A stretch of 41,972 bases of DNA from Nitrospinae bacterium CG11_big_fil_rev_8_21_14_0_20_45_15 (lineage in GTDB: Bacteria > Nitrospinota > Nitrospinia > Nitrospinales > VA-1), in contig PCWG01000010.1 of NCBI GenBank assembly GCA_002787235.1, positions 156,708 to 198,679 on the forward strand, read 5' to 3'. The notes under the pieces are model-generated. The model was not told the origin of the DNA. It made no database searches and saw nothing but the letters and a program-made list of their open reading frames with translations. Shown here piece by piece: positions 18,708 through 25,229 of this stretch. The number at the start of each line of letters is the position of its first letter. Positions within the stretch are counted from its first letter, which is position 1. The position numbers were made by a program, and so were the translations under genes.

Positions 18708-20510
18708 ATGAAAACGGCACTGATATTTCCTCCGCAATGGTACCCTAGCCAACCCTATCTGGCTTTGCCTACGTTGAAAGCCTACCTTGAAGGAAAAGGA
18801 TTTTCAGTCGATCAATTTGATTTCAATATTGAGAGTTACGACATCATCCTCAGCCGCGATTACCTCACTCATTGTATCGAGCAAATTCAGCGACGACTCA
18901 CCGCTCCCCCTATCACCGAAGAAGACCGCGAAGTACGACCGGTGTATCGTCAAATATTGGGGGATACAAACTACCTTGAATCGATTCTGTCTGAAGTGGA
19001 GTCTGCAAAAAATGTGTTACGAAACGAAGAGCTTTTCTTCCAGTTTGACCTCTACAAGGATGCCTACACGACCTTAAAAATTGCGATGCAGTTGGTCTCC
19101 TTCGCACATCACCCCAGTCGGCTCGATCTCGATTCGTTTTTCATGCAAGGCAACCCCGAAGAAAGTTTGCACGGTATCCTTTCTGCCACGCAGGACCGGC
19201 TGAGAAATCCATTCGTTCACCTTTTGGAAAAACAACTCCTGCCCAAAATTTCGTTTGAGGATTACGGGCTGTTGGGGATATCCATCATCCATGCGGGTCA
19301 AGTGATTCCAGCTCTGACACTGGCTCGACAAGTGAAACGAAATCACCCTCATTTGCACATCACCATTGGCGGTAGTATTTTTGCACGCCATCAAGACTTG
19401 CTGGAAGACAAACAGGTTTTGTTTGAAGAATTTTTTGACAGCATCCTTTTGTACGAAGGGGAACTTCCGCTGGAAAAACTCATTCAGCAATTGGAGGAAG
19501 GTAAAGACCCCAACGAAACACCCAATATGATTTACATGCGCGATGAGAAAATCATACGCACACCGAAAGCCAAAGCCCTCCCTTACGAGCTATTAAAACG
19601 TCCGAATTTTGATGGATTTCATCTCGAAAAATACCTGATGCCATTTCCTGTCCTGCCTTATATGGCCAGCCGGGGTTGTTATTGGGGGAAATGTACTTTC
19701 TGCACACACAGCTTCACCTACGACTCGCATTACCGCAAAGAAAACGAATCGCGCGTCGCGGAAGACCTCGACTATCTGGGCAAACGCTACAACACGCGAT
19801 ACTTCACCTTCTCCGATGAAGCCATTTCACCGAGTGCTTTCAGCCGGATGTCGAAAGCCATCCTGTCAAAAAAAGTGGATATGCGGGCCTTGGGGATGCT
19901 CAAGTTTGAATCGGGAGAAGTAGAATCTCCTGAGCTGTTTGATGAAATGTTTCGAGCCGGATTCCTCATGCTCTTCTTTGGATTGGAAAGTGCGAATGAT
20001 CGCATCCTCTCCATCATCGACAAAGGTTGTGACCAGAAAACCGAAGGCCGTGTTCTGAAACACAGTTCCGAAGCCGGGATATGGAATCATCTCTATCTGT
20101 TTTTCGGCTTCCCCACTGAAACTCGGGAAGAAGCCGAAGACACCATCGACTTCACTATCAAAAACGGTGAGACCGGCGCAGGACACATTCATTCCGTAGG
20201 ACAATCCATCTTCTCACTGGAAAAAGATTCTGCTATCTATCACAATCCCGGAAAATTTAAAATCGACCGAATCATCAAGTCGCCAGAAAGAGATATGGCC
20301 ATCGTCTTCGATTACGAAATCAATGAGGGCATGAACCGCGACGAAATTTTGGACGTCTACAAAAACTTCGATACGGTGATTGAAGATCATTTTGAATCGC
20401 GCACAGTCTGGAAATATTTATCACGCGAACATTTTCTGCTCTACCTTGACCGCTTCGGACGCGATGGGATATTGGAAATGTCCCGAAACTCCTCTGATGT
20501 AGTGAGTTAG
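18708..20510 (+). CDS. B12-binding-type radical SAM protein with CX4CX2C cluster motif
   Basis: A 600-residue cytoplasmic radical SAM enzyme. Residues 1-50 and ~190-270 form a split cobalamin-binding-like Rossmann domain (MKTALIFPPQWYPSQPYLAL; GLLGISIIHAGQVIPALTLA; ITIGGSIF), interrupted by a ~130-residue helical insert. No DXHXXG motif is visible, so B12 may be bound base-off or not at all. The radical SAM core has C324, C329 and C332 in RGCYWGKCTFC, which is CX4CX2C and not the usual CX3CX2C. SAM contacts such as FGLESANDRILSIIDKG follow. It is a single-gene unit behind a long structured leader. The reaction is unknown; methyl transfer or RiPP/lipid modification are only guesses. Confidence 0.85.
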   Translation: MKTALIFPPQWYPSQPYLALPTLKAYLEGKGFSVDQFDFNIESYDIILSRDYLTHCIEQIQRRLTAPPITEEDREVRPVYRQILGDTNYLESILSEVESAKNVLRNEELFFQFDLYKDAYTTLKIAMQLVSFAHHPSRLDLDSFFMQGNPEESLHGILSATQDRLRNPFVHLLEKQLLPKISFEDYGLLGISIIHAGQVIPALTLARQVKRNHPHLHITIGGSIFARHQDLLEDKQVLFEEFFDSILLYEGELPLEKLIQQLEEGKDPNETPNMIYMRDEKIIRTPKAKALPYELLKRPNFDGFHLEKYLMPFPVLPYMASRGCYWGKCTFCTHSFTYDSHYRKENESRVAEDLDYLGKRYNTRYFTFSDEAISPSAFSRMSKAILSKKVDMRALGMLKFESGEVESPELFDEMFRAGFLMLFFGLESANDRILSIIDKGCDQKTEGRVLKHSSEAGIWNHLYLFFGFPTETREEAEDTIDFTIKNGETGAGHIHSVGQSIFSLEKDSAIYHNPGKFKIDRIIKSPERDMAIVFDYEINEGMNRDEILDVYKNFDTVIEDHFESRTVWKYLSREHFLLYLDRFGRDGILEMSRNSSDVVS

Positions 20511-20595
20511 CCTCCACGACTCCAACAGCGCAAAAAATCGCCTTAATATAGAAAATATAGATTTGACCCCTAATGAACCCCCGCCAACTTCAAGC

Positions 20596-20970
20596 TCACT
20601 CCTTTTTAAGAGCAGAATTCACCTTCCCCAAAACCTCATCCAAATTGATGGGTTTAGTGATAAATGCATAAGCCCCCAAATCAAGGCACTCGTCTCTTCC
20701 TTTTATATCGAGTGCTCCTGAAACAATAATTACAGGTGAAGAAGTAATCGCACTGATTCTTTTCAAACATTCAACACCGCCCATCATAGGCATTTTTTTG
20801 TCTAACAAAATCACATCCGGCTGGAATGTCTCCACTTTGGACAAGCCTTCCACCCCGCTATTGGCCATTTCTACAGAAAATCCTTCTTCTGAGAAAAAAT
20901 CTTCCATAAGAGAACAATATTCTTTTTCATCATCTATGATCAATAATTTAGGTGGGCTATTTGATTGCAT
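20596..20970 (-). CDS. Single-domain response regulator (CheY-like receiver)
   Basis: A 124-residue receiver domain with nothing attached. The acidic pair D13-D14, phospho-acceptor D57 in VILLDKKMP, S84 in VSGA and K106 in ITKPI are all present. It follows the hemerythrin-histidine kinase gene by 76 nt on the same strand and is the obvious partner. Output must pass through another protein, such as a diguanylate cyclase, flagellar switch or phosphorelay, that is not in the window. Confidence 0.93.
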   Translation of the reverse strand: MQSNSPPKLLIIDDEKEYCSLMEDFFSEEGFSVEMANSGVEGLSKVETFQPDVILLDKKMPMMGGVECLKRISAITSSPVIIVSGALDIKGRDECLDLGAYAFITKPINLDEVLGKVNSALKKE

Positions 20971-21046
20971 GACAGTTATAGAATATTATAGATAAAATTT
21001 TTTAAAGAGTTTGAAAAAAACGAGGCCGTGATAGTCCGTTTATCAC

Positions 21047-22402
21047 TCAATCTGCAATGGGAAGATCTATTAAAAATGTTGTGCCTTTACCTTCGGCAGA
21101 TTCAACTGAAATCTCCCCACCATGTTCTTGGATAATTCCGTGCACTACCGATAGCCCCATCCCCGCTCCCTCGCCTTCAGGCTTTGTTGTAAAAAAGGGA
21201 TCGAATATTTTTGAAACCACTTCTGGGCTCATACCTGTTCCATTATCGCTGACCTTGAATCTGTGGAATCCCCTTTTCTTACCCTTCAGCTGTTCACAGG
21301 ATAAAGTTATAACACCACCGTTTGGCATCGCATATTTTGCATTTTGGAGAAGATTCACGAACACCTGATGTATTTTATCTGCGTCATATAAAATCGGGGT
21401 AAGGTCAGAACACCAATGCTTCTCAATCTGGATACTATCTAATTTGTACTCCTCTTCCACGAGGTTCAGCATGCTTTCAATTGTAACCTTTAAGAACCCT
21501 TTCTTTAGTTTAGCTTCTCCCTGCCTGGAAAATGCCAAAAGCAAGCCCACGATCTTTTTTATACGCTCGATTTGAAAATCAACTTTCCCGCAAAATGATT
21601 GAATTATTTCATTATCGTTATTACGTCTTTTCAGCATCTGATTTTGAAGACCGATTATATTTAATGGATTCAGGACTTCATGACAAACACCTGCTGACAA
21701 TTCGCCTACGGCGGCGAGTTTCAGAGAAGTCAACAATCGCCCTTCAGCTATCTCAATCTTTTGCTCCAAAACCTTTTTCAGTTCATTCAATTCTTCAGTG
21801 TTTTTTCGTAACGCGTCTTCGGTCTGCTTGCGATTTTCTATCTCTCTTATAAGGTCCAATGTACGTACTGAAAGGCTGCTGTACATGCCTGACATTGCGT
21901 CGATTAATATTTTAACCGAATCACTCATTTCCCTATTCGAAATTATTTTGGCCTGTTCCAAAGATTGGCCGGAATCGATTTGATGTAAAACAATAGCCAG
22001 ACGTTTGTCACTGTCCAAGATGTGATAGATCAGCCAGCGAATCAGAAATTTGATGACGTCTTCAACAACACGTCCACCAAAAGGTGCTCCATCTTTTTCC
22101 TTTATTTTTGACACTTCAGGTAAAAAAGAGCTGTGAGTTTGCTGGTGCTCGGTAAACCAGACATCATCTTTAAAATAAGGCCGCCAGATACTTTCTTCCG
22201 TTTTGAAATGGTAATCTGCATATGCCGCTAACTCGTCAAAAACTCGAGTCAACTCAATCTCGTCATTGGCAATCAGATGGGAACCCAGTTGATTCAAGAG
22301 GTCTACCAATTTTTTATGCTGTTCATCAATCAGCGGTATCCCCGTCTCAAAATTCTCATTCCAGAAAAAAACATTACAATCCAGACTTTTATCTTCTGTC
22401 AT
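21047..22402 (-). CDS. Hemerythrin-domain sensor histidine kinase
   Basis: A 451-residue soluble kinase. Residues 10-140 form a bacteriohemerythrin domain with every canonical diiron ligand: H29, H65, E69, H86, H90, H127 and D132. A helical linker (150-225, coiled-coil-like) leads to HisKA, with H241 in CHEVLNPL, and HATPase_c, with N354 in LLQNAKYA, the G1 box DNGTGM, F-box FFTTKPEG and G2 GAGMGLSVVHGI. There is no transmembrane segment. Hemerythrins bind O2 reversibly and respond to redox state or NO, so a cytoplasmic oxygen or redox sensor is inferred. GAGAGAC precedes the ATG; the receiver gene lies downstream. Confidence 0.93.
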   Translation of the reverse strand: MTEDKSLDCNVFFWNENFETGIPLIDEQHKKLVDLLNQLGSHLIANDEIELTRVFDELAAYADYHFKTEESIWRPYFKDDVWFTEHQQTHSSFLPEVSKIKEKDGAPFGGRVVEDVIKFLIRWLIYHILDSDKRLAIVLHQIDSGQSLEQAKIISNREMSDSVKILIDAMSGMYSSLSVRTLDLIREIENRKQTEDALRKNTEELNELKKVLEQKIEIAEGRLLTSLKLAAVGELSAGVCHEVLNPLNIIGLQNQMLKRRNNDNEIIQSFCGKVDFQIERIKKIVGLLLAFSRQGEAKLKKGFLKVTIESMLNLVEEEYKLDSIQIEKHWCSDLTPILYDADKIHQVFVNLLQNAKYAMPNGGVITLSCEQLKGKKRGFHRFKVSDNGTGMSPEVVSKIFDPFFTTKPEGEGAGMGLSVVHGIIQEHGGEISVESAEGKGTTFLIDLPIAD

Positions 22403-22463
22403 AGTCTCTCAATTGACCTGTGCGAATAGCCTGGAAAATGACGCAAACTATTAAAGTGTTTCC

Positions 22464-23561
22464 CTAAGCAGCAGGGCCATCAACATATTGGTAGCGCATG
22501 TTCCGACGTTGGGGGGTCCGACCCGCATCCTTAATGAGGCGGCAGATGGCTTCCTCATCAAGACAGTGAACCGTACCCGCGGCGGCAACTACATTTTCTT
22601 CCAGCATGGTGCTTCCCATATCGTTGGCCCCATAACTCAAAGAAACCTGCCCTATTTTAGGGCCTTGGGTGACCCAGGAAGCTTGCAGGTTGTCAAAATT
22701 ATCCAGAACGATTCGGCTGATGGCCAGTGTTTTGAGATAGTCCAGTCCGGTGACCGCCGAGCGAATACCCATATCCAGACTCAGTTCCGTGTTCCCCGGT
22801 TGATAAGTCCAGGGAATGAACGCCGTGAATCCCCCCGTCTTGTCTTGTTGGTCGCGAATGCGAAGGAGATGTTCGACCCTTTCTTCCAACGTTTCAACAT
22901 GACCAAACATCATCGTCGCAGTCGTCGGGATGTCCATCCGGTGCGCTACATCCATGATCTCCAGCCATTCGTCCGAATTGCACTTATGAGGACTGATTTT
23001 TTGTCGCACTCGATCGACCAGAATTTCAGCACCGCCGCCCGGAATGGAATCGAGCCCCGCCTGTTTCAATCGCTCCAGAGTTTCCTTCAGTGACAATTTG
23101 GAAACCTTACGGATATGATGGATTTCCGATGGTGACAAGGCGTGCAGATGAATTTCAAAACGTTGCTTGATCCGGCGAAACAAGTCTTCATAATAATCGA
23201 TTTTTAAATCGATATTATGCCCACCCTGCAACAGGATCTGGCTTCCCCCCAGATCAAGCGTTTCCTGAATTTTCTGCGCGATGGTTTCAAACGGAAGGAC
23301 GTAGGCATCCTCATCTTTTTCCTTACGGTAAAAAGCACAAAAAGAGCAGTCCGTAACGCAAATGTTGGTGTAATTGATATTGCGATCAACAATATAAGTG
23401 ACGGTATCCGAGCTTTGTTTTCTGCGCATCAGGCGCGAGGCAACATTGCCCAGAAGGAGATTGTCCTTGATGGAAAAAAGTTGCAGTGCTTCCGCTCCGT
23501 CGATGCGTTCGCCCGCCAATGCTTTTTGTAAAATAGTTTCTATGGTGTTCAATGGTCGCAA
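22464..23561 (-). CDS. mqnC: Cyclic dehypoxanthinyl futalosine synthase (radical SAM)
   Basis: Closes dehypoxanthine futalosine to the cyclic intermediate in the futalosine menaquinone pathway. The 365 residues show the cluster motif CVTDCSFC (CX3CX2C), AFYRKEKDEDAYVL, LLQGGHNIDLKIDYYEDL, LHALSPSEIHHI and GGGAEILVDRVRQKISP, the last two diagnostic for MqnC/MqnE-type enzymes. The best start is a TTG at 23561 overlapping the end of the VOC gene; no ATG is available nearby. No other mqn gene is in the window. The organism probably respires with menaquinone. Confidence 0.93.
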   Translation of the reverse strand: MRPLNTIETILQKALAGERIDGAEALQLFSIKDNLLLGNVASRLMRRKQSSDTVTYIVDRNINYTNICVTDCSFCAFYRKEKDEDAYVLPFETIAQKIQETLDLGGSQILLQGGHNIDLKIDYYEDLFRRIKQRFEIHLHALSPSEIHHIRKVSKLSLKETLERLKQAGLDSIPGGGAEILVDRVRQKISPHKCNSDEWLEIMDVAHRMDIPTTATMMFGHVETLEERVEHLLRIRDQQDKTGGFTAFIPWTYQPGNTELSLDMGIRSAVTGLDYLKTLAISRIVLDNFDNLQASWVTQGPKIGQVSLSYGANDMGSTMLEENVVAAAGTVHCLDEEAICRLIKDAGRTPQRRNMRYQYVDGPAA

Positions 23562-23935
23562 TGAATTTCGAGATGGTTAAAATCGGGATCGTTGAAATAG
23601 ACAGACACACCGTCCCCGCGTTTGACAGGGCCACTGGTAAGGGCCACATCTTTAGATTTGAGTTCCTGGATTATTTCTTCAAAATGTTCCGGCGAGGCCT
23701 GAAAAGCAAAGTGCAAATACCCTTCGTCGCTCAACTGCTCCAGCGGTTTTCGGGTTGCAAGTTCGGGAACTTCAAAAAGGGCGATAGCGGCGTTTCCCGT
23801 ATCGAGCATCATATGACGCAGACCTTTGGAGAATCTCTGTAGCACCTTGAACCCAAGCACATCAACGTAGAACCGCTCAGCGCGATCAAGATCCGCTACA
23901 TTCAAGGCGATGTGATGAATTCCGTCGAGTTTCAT
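23549..23935 (-). CDS. VOC superfamily (glyoxalase-fold) protein
   Basis: A 128-residue protein with two beta-alpha-beta-beta-beta modules. LDGIHHIALNVADLDRAERFYVD split at the V is the N-terminal module, and GDGVSVYFNDPDFNHLEIHCDH holds the likely C-terminal metal ligands (H and E). H8, the E in IALFEV, the H in LHFAF and E near the end could form the metal site. The substrate is unknown; the family includes glyoxalase I, dioxygenases and antibiotic-resistance proteins. The ATG at 23935 is chosen over a TTG two codons earlier. It overlaps the start of mqnC and follows the parvulin gene by 12 nt, so these form one operon. Confidence 0.82.
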   Translation of the reverse strand: MKLDGIHHIALNVADLDRAERFYVDVLGFKVLQRFSKGLRHMMLDTGNAAIALFEVPELATRKPLEQLSDEGYLHFAFQASPEHFEEIIQELKSKDVALTSGPVKRGDGVSVYFNDPDFNHLEIHCDH

Positions 23936-24428: not shown

Positions 24429-25229
24429 CTACAGGAAAAAACTTGCAAAACTCATGGTGCGAGGAATCAGCTTGGGGCGGGCCAATCGAGGATCGAATTC
24501 TCGCATCCTGCGCTTGTTCTCACGCATGCAAAGTGACACAAATTCCTTGGGCGACAGTGATGAATTTTCATGCTCCCGGGCTTGAATCGTAAACGAGGAA
24601 CCGCCAAGGTTTTTGATGTCCATGAGTCGAGACCATCCTGCATCCGCAAACGCCCATAAGTTGCGGATAAAATGCACCGGTTGCATTAAAAACGGTTGTC
24701 GATGCCTTTGATAATGCATCCAGTTCTGAATAAATAATATGTGCCGGGCTTCTTCCTGAACGATGGGTTCCATGACTTCGATCAACTCAATCGGATAATC
24801 TCCCGTTGACTTGGAAATTTCCAAAAATCCAAATGCAAAAAAAGAATCAATGCACTCCCCTGCGCCTGTACTCATAAAAGCCCATTCCAGATCAGGTGGG
24901 AGAGGCTTATCCGGGATTTCATTGAACGGGATATCGTAATGTTTGAGAAAGTATTTGAGGATATCCGCGTGCCGTCCTTCTTCGTAGGCTTGCAAAGCAA
25001 GGGCTTCTTTAATCAGAGGATCGGGTTCTTCTCTGGAATAGGCATCCAGTTTGTTGAAAACCTGACGTTCCGTATGAACGGCATAATCCCAGATAGGGAA
25101 ATCGGTCAGTTTTTTTAAAACGTTCGCATCCAATTCAGGCCAGGGAAGTTCTTCTGGCGTAAAAACTTTATGCGTTTCAATAAAAAATTTACAGAACAGT
25201 TCTTTATGTTCTTCCGATCCCAATTCCAT
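24429..25229 (-). CDS. Ferritin-like diiron protein
   Basis: A 266-residue mostly helical protein. Two ExxH motifs (E84-H87 in YEEGRHADIL and E160-H163 in QEEARHILFI) plus E54 in VHTERQVFN and E125 in GAGECIDSFF give the six carboxylate/His ligands of a four-helix-bundle diiron site. This matches ferritin-like oxidases/hydroxylases more than storage ferritins, because of its length and the extra ~80 C-terminal residues. Substrate unknown. GAGGAA precedes the ATG. The parvulin gene is 112 nt downstream on the same strand. A tRNA or lipid hydroxylase, or an oxygen-scavenging rubrerythrin relative, are possible. Confidence 0.75.
   Translation of the reverse strand: MELGSEEHKELFCKFFIETHKVFTPEELPWPELDANVLKKLTDFPIWDYAVHTERQVFNKLDAYSREEPDPLIKEALALQAYEEGRHADILKYFLKHYDIPFNEIPDKPLPPDLEWAFMSTGAGECIDSFFAFGFLEISKSTGDYPIELIEVMEPIVQEEARHILFIQNWMHYQRHRQPFLMQPVHFIRNLWAFADAGWSRLMDIKNLGGSSFTIQAREHENSSLSPKEFVSLCMRENKRRMREFDPRLARPKLIPRTMSFASFFL

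Follow-up and report, generated by a model that had tools for sequence, protein, structure and literature searches.

A gene in the 41,972-nt stretch of DNA analysed here (the window) encodes a protein in which a hemerythrin sensor module is joined to a histidine kinase core between residues 208 and 209. Our preferred reading, which we consider reasonably probable, is that this protein is a cytosolic sensor kinase produced by module swapping, in which the redox or oxygen state of a diiron site controls the balance of kinase and phosphatase activity toward a lone receiver encoded beside it. The features concerned are the following, in window coordinates:

21047 to 22402, minus strand: hemerythrin-histidine kinase gene, an ORF of 451 aa with an ATG start (Pfam; hydropathy; ortholog in the congener at 77% identity)
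21998 to 22363, minus strand: hemerythrin domain, residues 14-135 (Pfam match 20-135), with ligands H29, H65, E69, H86, H90, H127 and D132
21779 to 21997, minus strand: helical transmitter and start of the coiled coil, residues 136-208 (alignments, spacing, AlphaFold2 helix)
21778 to 21779, minus strand: mosaic junction, residues 208/209 (two abutting blastp matches)
21518 to 21706, minus strand: HisKA (DHp) domain, residues 233-295, with phospho-acceptor H241 in HEVLN (Pfam)
21056 to 21385, minus strand: HATPase_c domain, residues 340-449 (Pfam, alignments)
20596 to 20970, minus strand: lone receiver of 124 aa with D57 (Pfam Response_reg, E 3.8e-25)
22464 to 23561, minus strand: mqnC, cyclic dehypoxanthinyl futalosine synthase (NCBIfam TIGR03699, above cut-off)

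A first-pass annotation of the same DNA had proposed that all seven hemerythrin ligands are present, that they are fused to a complete HisKA-HATPase unit lacking membrane segments, and that a single-domain receiver with D57 lies 76 nt downstream; each of these points was borne out. The Pfam matches of the kinase (Hemerythrin, E 3.8e-13, 50.4 bits against a cut-off of 25.3; HisKA, E 5.5e-8; HATPase_c, E 5.1e-27) all exceed the curated cut-offs, and the NCBIfam bacteriohemerythrin model (bact_hemeryth) scores 88.4 bits against a cut-off of 84. The five His, one Glu and one Asp of the ligand set stand at the expected letters, and the seven columns are filled in 17 of 17 aligned hemerythrin domains, which include those of 11 non-hybrid and two hybrid kinase fusions, three cyclases and an own-genome receiver-hemerythrin protein. 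Hydropathy revealed no membrane segment, the best 19-residue Kyte-Doolittle mean being 1.14, against 2.35 in a membrane paralog. As in other direct-fusion hemerythrin-histidine kinases, the hemerythrin domain directly precedes the HisKA-HATPase unit, with neither PAS nor membrane segments.

H241, E242, N245 and P246 are conserved in the HisKA alignments, and the N, G1, F and G2 boxes of the HATPase_c domain are kept (N350, N354, D386, G388, G390, F400, G414 and G416). The protein hence has the features of an orthodox sensor histidine kinase (HisKA with HATPase_c, the histidine and the boxes), with one deviation: position 413 of the G2 box is Ala, where at least 90% of the aligned kinases carry Thr, as does the congener ortholog at the matching position. 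The HEVLN motif at H241, which we take to be the HExxN phosphatase motif, suggests that the kinase may be able to act also as a phosphatase.

In an AlphaFold2 model of the full-length protein (mean pLDDT 81.8, pTM 0.46), built on an alignment of 16 rows of which only two cover the sensor half, residues 148-260 form a single helix that runs into the DHp domain. The solved structure closest to the hemerythrin domain by sequence search is DcrH-Hr (E 1.4e-13), which was also the best fold match of the sensor module folded alone (TM 0.82-0.83 by target length, from a prediction built on two sequences). Full-length fold searches produced matches confined to the kinase part, with ZraS at the top.

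The composite nature of the gene, which goes beyond what the first-pass annotation had noted, emerges from two blastp matches that abut exactly at 208/209. Residues 1-208 are 53.4% identical over 208 residues to the hemerythrin-GGDEF protein L193, and residues 209-451 are 61.5% identical over 244 to L203, an own-genome kinase that contains two hydrophobic segments besides its CHASE and PAS domains. The front half of this mosaic gene is the sensor module of hemerythrin-diguanylate cyclases. A hemerythrin-GGDEF protein of a Vibrio alginolyticus plasmid, the best of 38 records in the plasmid search (the remaining ones at or below 35% identity), aligns at 47% over 204 residues, gap-free and with the transmitter included. 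In the sensor-half tree, the window and G002 proteins share a starred set of 8 (98/97) with L193, L180, L194, L181, L189 and L195; its rows other than these two hemerythrin-kinase orthologs come from the class of G085 and from a Vibrio plasmid. Single-domain, chemoreceptor and receiver-linked hemerythrins of the window's own phylum are placed apart from the window sensor in the careful sensor-half tree. An origin of the sensor from own-phylum hemerythrins was rejected: among the other matches listed (77 genomes), the alignments end at residues 137-141, without the transmitter.

The kinase half has a different affinity. It belongs to a starred set of 11 rows (97), 10 from the own genome and its congener plus one phylum relative; the kinase-core tree holds 122 cores and was built by a quick method without bootstrap. 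The cores of L006, L184 and L191, the three other hemerythrin-kinases assigned to a clade by a starred branch, are in a clade distinct from that of the window core. A single ancestral fusion for all hemerythrin-kinases was rejected, since their kinase halves fall into separate starred clades. At least six own-genome kinases (L203-L207 and that of the window) have cores 54-63% identical to the window core and differing sensors; judged from these sequences, the kinase family has expanded in this lineage through the replacement of sensors. Core identity to the window is 63.1% for L204, 61.5% for L203 and 60.1% for L206, and the L203-type CHASE sensor is found on other cores in G019 and G001. Sensors therefore move freely in this kinase family. 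Two narrower proposals were rejected on the same data: L203 as the only possible core donor, because L204 and L206 are equally close and only the receiver points to L203, and the CHASE sensor of L203 as the mark of an older, fixed pair, because the same sensor sits on those other cores.

The receiver provides the more specific link. In its tree, the window receiver groups with the C32 receiver beside L203 in a starred set of three rows (98). The two are 65.6% identical, the next best receiver reaching 42.5-44%, and the receiver beside L203 is the closest relative of the window receiver outside its ortholog. The L203 pair has the same kinase-receiver order, with a gap of 89 nt, compared with 76 nt (20971-21046) in the window. 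This second own-genome pair, by best score the closest relative of both the kinase core and the receiver, strengthens the earlier suggestion that kinase and receiver belong together. The simplest account seems to be that a kinase-receiver pair was duplicated and its membrane sensor then replaced by the hemerythrin module, and it seems that a membrane CHASE-PAS input was thereby turned into a cytosolic diiron input. The receiver was most likely duplicated together with the kinase core.

The pair is retained in G002, a genome of the same genus (kinase 77%, receiver 79% identity), where it has the same radical SAM neighbour and the end of mqnC is encoded at the contig end just upstream. In the window, mqnC lies 61 nt upstream of the kinase gene on the same strand, and it was used as the synteny anchor. 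In two other genomes, G001 of the same genus (one contig) and G004 of the same family, mqnC is followed by different genes, without the pair. Among 77 phylum genomes, matches across both hemerythrin and kinase were found in G000 and G002 only; the pair is thus a lineage-specific gain at this site. Between G000 and G002, dN/dS is 0.13 for the hemerythrin domain, 0.13 for the transmitter, 0.21 for the kinase core and 0.20 for the receiver, values that indicate purifying selection on the pair, strongest in the sensor half. Conservation in the congener and these ratios together confirm, at the level of sequence, that the pair is not a chance occurrence. Two contig ends of G002, L117 and L136, carry slightly different mqnC 3' ends, probably a strain mixture in the assembly.

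Upstream of mqnC lie genes for a glyoxalase-like protein, a PpiC-type isomerase, a 266-residue protein and a fused uroporphyrinogen-III methyltransferase/synthase. The 266-residue protein (24429-25229, minus strand) is rich in E and H, is kept beside mqnC in G001 and G004, and has no Pfam or NCBIfam match; it is perhaps, as a guess, a ferritin-like diiron protein. The other flank of the pair is formed by a convergent gene for a B12-binding radical SAM protein (18708-20510, plus strand), kept in G002, which comes nearest to models of RiPP C-methyltransferases and P-methyltransferases, with scores below their cut-offs. No minus-strand promoter or terminator in the kinase-receiver gap (20971-21046) passed the scans, and one may still be present. 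The sole terminator-like site found by the terminator scan in 20450-23700 falls inside mqnC. A structured RNA near the pair was rejected, as Rfam gave zero matches in 20400-22700.

The conservation of the pair also bears on the identity of the kinase's partner. It might be argued that the kinase has its main partner elsewhere, or uses the lone receiver only to drain off or pass on phosphate, and that it signals to other receivers, for instance an own-genome receiver-hemerythrin fusion. The receiver of that Pfam-confirmed protein is 42.5% identical to the lone receiver, cross-talk is conceivable given cores 54-63% identical across the own-genome family, and the two genes are separated by 76 nt. 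We nevertheless regard this as unlikely, because the two genes stay side by side in two genomes and because the paralogous pair repeats the arrangement, its gene order being the same, its gap 89 nt and its receiver 65.6% identical.

A receiver-hemerythrin fusion of 262 aa with all seven ligands is encoded about 17 kb before the window (L138:1558-2346, minus strand, G000:C39). Its ortholog in G002 is L239, and MEDS/DcmR-type sensory-like genes, recognized by reading, adjoin both. Kinases of the same family could use the L138 product, with its hemerythrin, as a phosphate acceptor.

The sensor module itself is larger than the hemerythrin fold, extending about 70 residues past the last ligand, D132. 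From D132 to a conserved aromatic (Y174) there are 42 residues in the window protein and in most proteins measured. The window protein has the hemerythrin-plus-transmitter module shared with the Bhr-DGC family and lacks the C-terminal GGDEF domain, the module comparison having been made with hemerythrin-GGDEF proteins found in this analysis. Matches to hemerythrin plus transmitter at E 1e-20 or better occur in 10 of 369 genomes of the class of G085. With L006 as query, 13 of 399 genomes in the order of G085 matched at 1e-28 or better; the class of G086 gave one match, at 1e-22, among 385 genomes. The phylum of G078 yielded 17 of 395 genomes at 1e-16; among the matches listed, all six that cover the transmitter are GGDEF fusions by motif, and no kinase was recognized (13 of 18 rows). 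On these counts from the G085, G086 and G078 lineages, kinase fusions would therefore make up the smaller part of the cassette's outputs within the sampled genomes. A hemerythrin-diguanylate cyclase (L180:3998-5122) is carried by the Vibrio alginolyticus plasmid pVAS114, which is typed as conjugative; the cassette is therefore mobile in certain hosts. Three viral contigs of IMG/VR (L214, L215 and L216) encode hemerythrin domains with 27-31% identity to the module.

In another reading, the hemerythrin domain would have no control over the kinase, serving instead for dimerization, as a structural domain inert to iron or redox, or for oxygen storage. Against this, the same cassette on several different catalytic domains is what would be expected of an input module; furthermore, kinase and cyclase fusions alike keep the ligands and the transmitter, and the dN/dS of the sensor, 0.13, is the lowest in the protein. 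We consider an inert domain very improbable.

The preferred reading of a redox- or oxygen-controlled kinase draws on the two characterized enzymes of this sensor class. The available part of a 2022 review states that Bhr-DGC is 10x more active when reduced than when oxidized and that Bhr-HD-GYP is active only when reduced; both oxidize quickly, without an oxy form, and bind azide without being activated (PMC9388753). As the window sensor belongs with those of diguanylate cyclases, redox or oxygen control via a helical transmitter is the best guess, and by this analogy the window protein probably senses oxygen or redox state. The diiron site would follow oxygen or cellular redox, being diferrous at low oxygen and diferric after autoxidation. 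Its change of state would reach the DHp helix by way of the transmitter and an unbroken coiled coil, and would there set autophosphorylation of H241 against dephosphorylation, and hence the phosphorylation of the receiver at D57. The receiver has a complete catalytic set (D13, D14, D57, S84 and K106), and its 124 residues hold Response_reg alone by Pfam, with no output domain; the signal would consequently be relayed by protein contact or phosphorelay.

A different ligand might also be envisaged, with the hemerythrin domain sensing nitric oxide or another small molecule, oxygen or redox acting indirectly, and the output being a nitrosative-stress response in a nitrite oxidizer. The own genome holds a nitrite-oxidoreductase-like gene pair, which we take to be NXR, with a NarG model score below the cut-off; these genes suggest a nitrite oxidizer of the Nitrospinota type. 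According to the available text of PMC9052748, YtfE-type proteins, which are hemerythrin-like and diiron, have a role in nitrosative stress. In the two characterized hemerythrin enzymes, however, activity tracks redox and not azide binding, as far as the accessible part of the review goes (PMC9388753), and Pfam and NCBIfam identified no NO-related gene adjoining the kinase-receiver pair. We judge a nitric oxide sensor to be rather unlikely.

The distance from the conserved aromatic to the phospho-accepting histidine is 67, 74, 81 or 88 residues, all equal to 4 modulo 7, in 11 of 11 non-hybrid direct fusions (the window, L087, L006, L257, L191, L258, L260, L184, L261, L262 and L265; L260 has a His at the aromatic position). 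Six of these 11 rows were scanned with Pfam and the other five classed by motif only; HisKA was below the cut-off in L006, L184, L261 and L257 and absent in L265. Four proteins were dropped before the count, L186 and L272 for a PAS-like segment in between and L259 and L274 as duplicates. The phase pattern first showed up when L006 and the window were seen to differ by a net insertion of 21 residues, and fusions added later gave one new length (81). The heptad count was initially anchored on D132 and re-anchored post hoc on the aromatic; the original anchor gives agreement in 10 of 11, L265 being off. Two hybrid kinases, L189 (classed from reading its sequence) and L273 (Pfam-confirmed), have distances of 54 and 47, both 5 modulo 7. 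For GGDEF fusions, the majority show a distance of 42 or 49, and the two closest to the window one of 38. Four distinct lengths sharing one phase would arise with a chance of about 0.003 if independent; the rows are not fully independent, and the statistic weighs less than this figure suggests because eight of the 11 fusions carry one kinase type (SEK..AHEINNP, by reading).

The 67/74/81/88 ladder would fit coiled-coil signalling. In the available text of PMC6798134, the linkers of sensor kinases are described as coiled coils in which the phase of the length governs the response, and the engineered kinase YF1 reverses its response to light between linkers of 7n and of 7n+1 residues. By analogy with this inversion, opposite responses are predicted for the 4 modulo 7 and 5 modulo 7 groups. 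We put forward only tentatively, as a possible extension, that hemerythrin and transmitter may form a portable cassette of fixed mechanical register, placed on several kinase types and on diguanylate cyclases, always at a helical phase in which one and the same diiron-driven twist would drive the output, and that non-hybrid and hybrid kinases may answer oxygen or redox in opposite ways.

The architecture as such is already known. The first-pass annotation, which took hemerythrin-coupled diguanylate cyclases as known, overstated the unfamiliarity of a kinase fusion. Indeed, a 2008 survey (Bailly et al.) counts four histidine-kinase and four CheY-like fusions among multidomain hemerythrins, fusions that enter here by count alone, as given in the available text (PMC2556348), and the present analysis found 10 further direct non-hybrid fusions and two hybrids. 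On these grounds, the fusion as a unique or new architecture was rejected. A 2016 survey reports 56 hemerythrin architectures (PMC4919030, available part), and hemerythrin is present in the domain graph of a 2006 signalling-helix paper, in the portion available (PMC1592074). Surveyed hemerythrin-histidine kinases resemble the window protein, as far as their published descriptions were accessible, in having an N-terminal hemerythrin and a kinase or kinase-like output. For Bhr-66 of Methylomonas denitrificans, an oxygen-sensing two-component role was suggested in 2025; in the available text it has response regulator genes nearby, like the window kinase, and PAS-like folds, which the window protein lacks (PMC12607906). 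A kinase is absent from the characterized hemerythrin sensors in the available part of the 2022 review (PMC9388753), and we found no published test of any hemerythrin-kinase in the open-licence literature.

Bhr-DGC (Vibrio cholerae) and Bhr-HD-GYP (Ferrovum) likewise carry an N-terminal hemerythrin on a catalytic output, according to the same part of the review (PMC9388753), but the outputs are GGDEF and HD-GYP, respectively, instead of HisKA-HATPase. DcrH of Desulfovibrio vulgaris has the same hemerythrin fold as the window sensor; it is described there as a membrane chemoreceptor with a C-terminal hemerythrin, whereas the window protein is soluble and its hemerythrin N-terminal (PMC9388753). 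With kinases of the ZraS/AtoS/NtrB type the core is shared: the AtoS model scores 196.9 bits over window residues 226-450, far under its equivalog cut-off of 646. The regulators of AtoSC, ZraSR and NtrBC have an output domain, whereas the window receiver has neither an AAA nor a DNA-binding domain and the input to the kinase is a cytosolic hemerythrin.

What is new here is the anatomy, a mosaic gene with its junction at 208/209, and the locus exemplifies sensor swapping clearly, a kinase-receiver pair having received a new sensor at a sharp junction. It offers a small soluble kinase, a dedicated receiver, a characterized sensor class and an own-genome paralogous pair that differs only in the sensor. 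These properties make two ideas testable, namely that a diiron site drives a helical transmitter and that the register of the linker sets the direction of the response.
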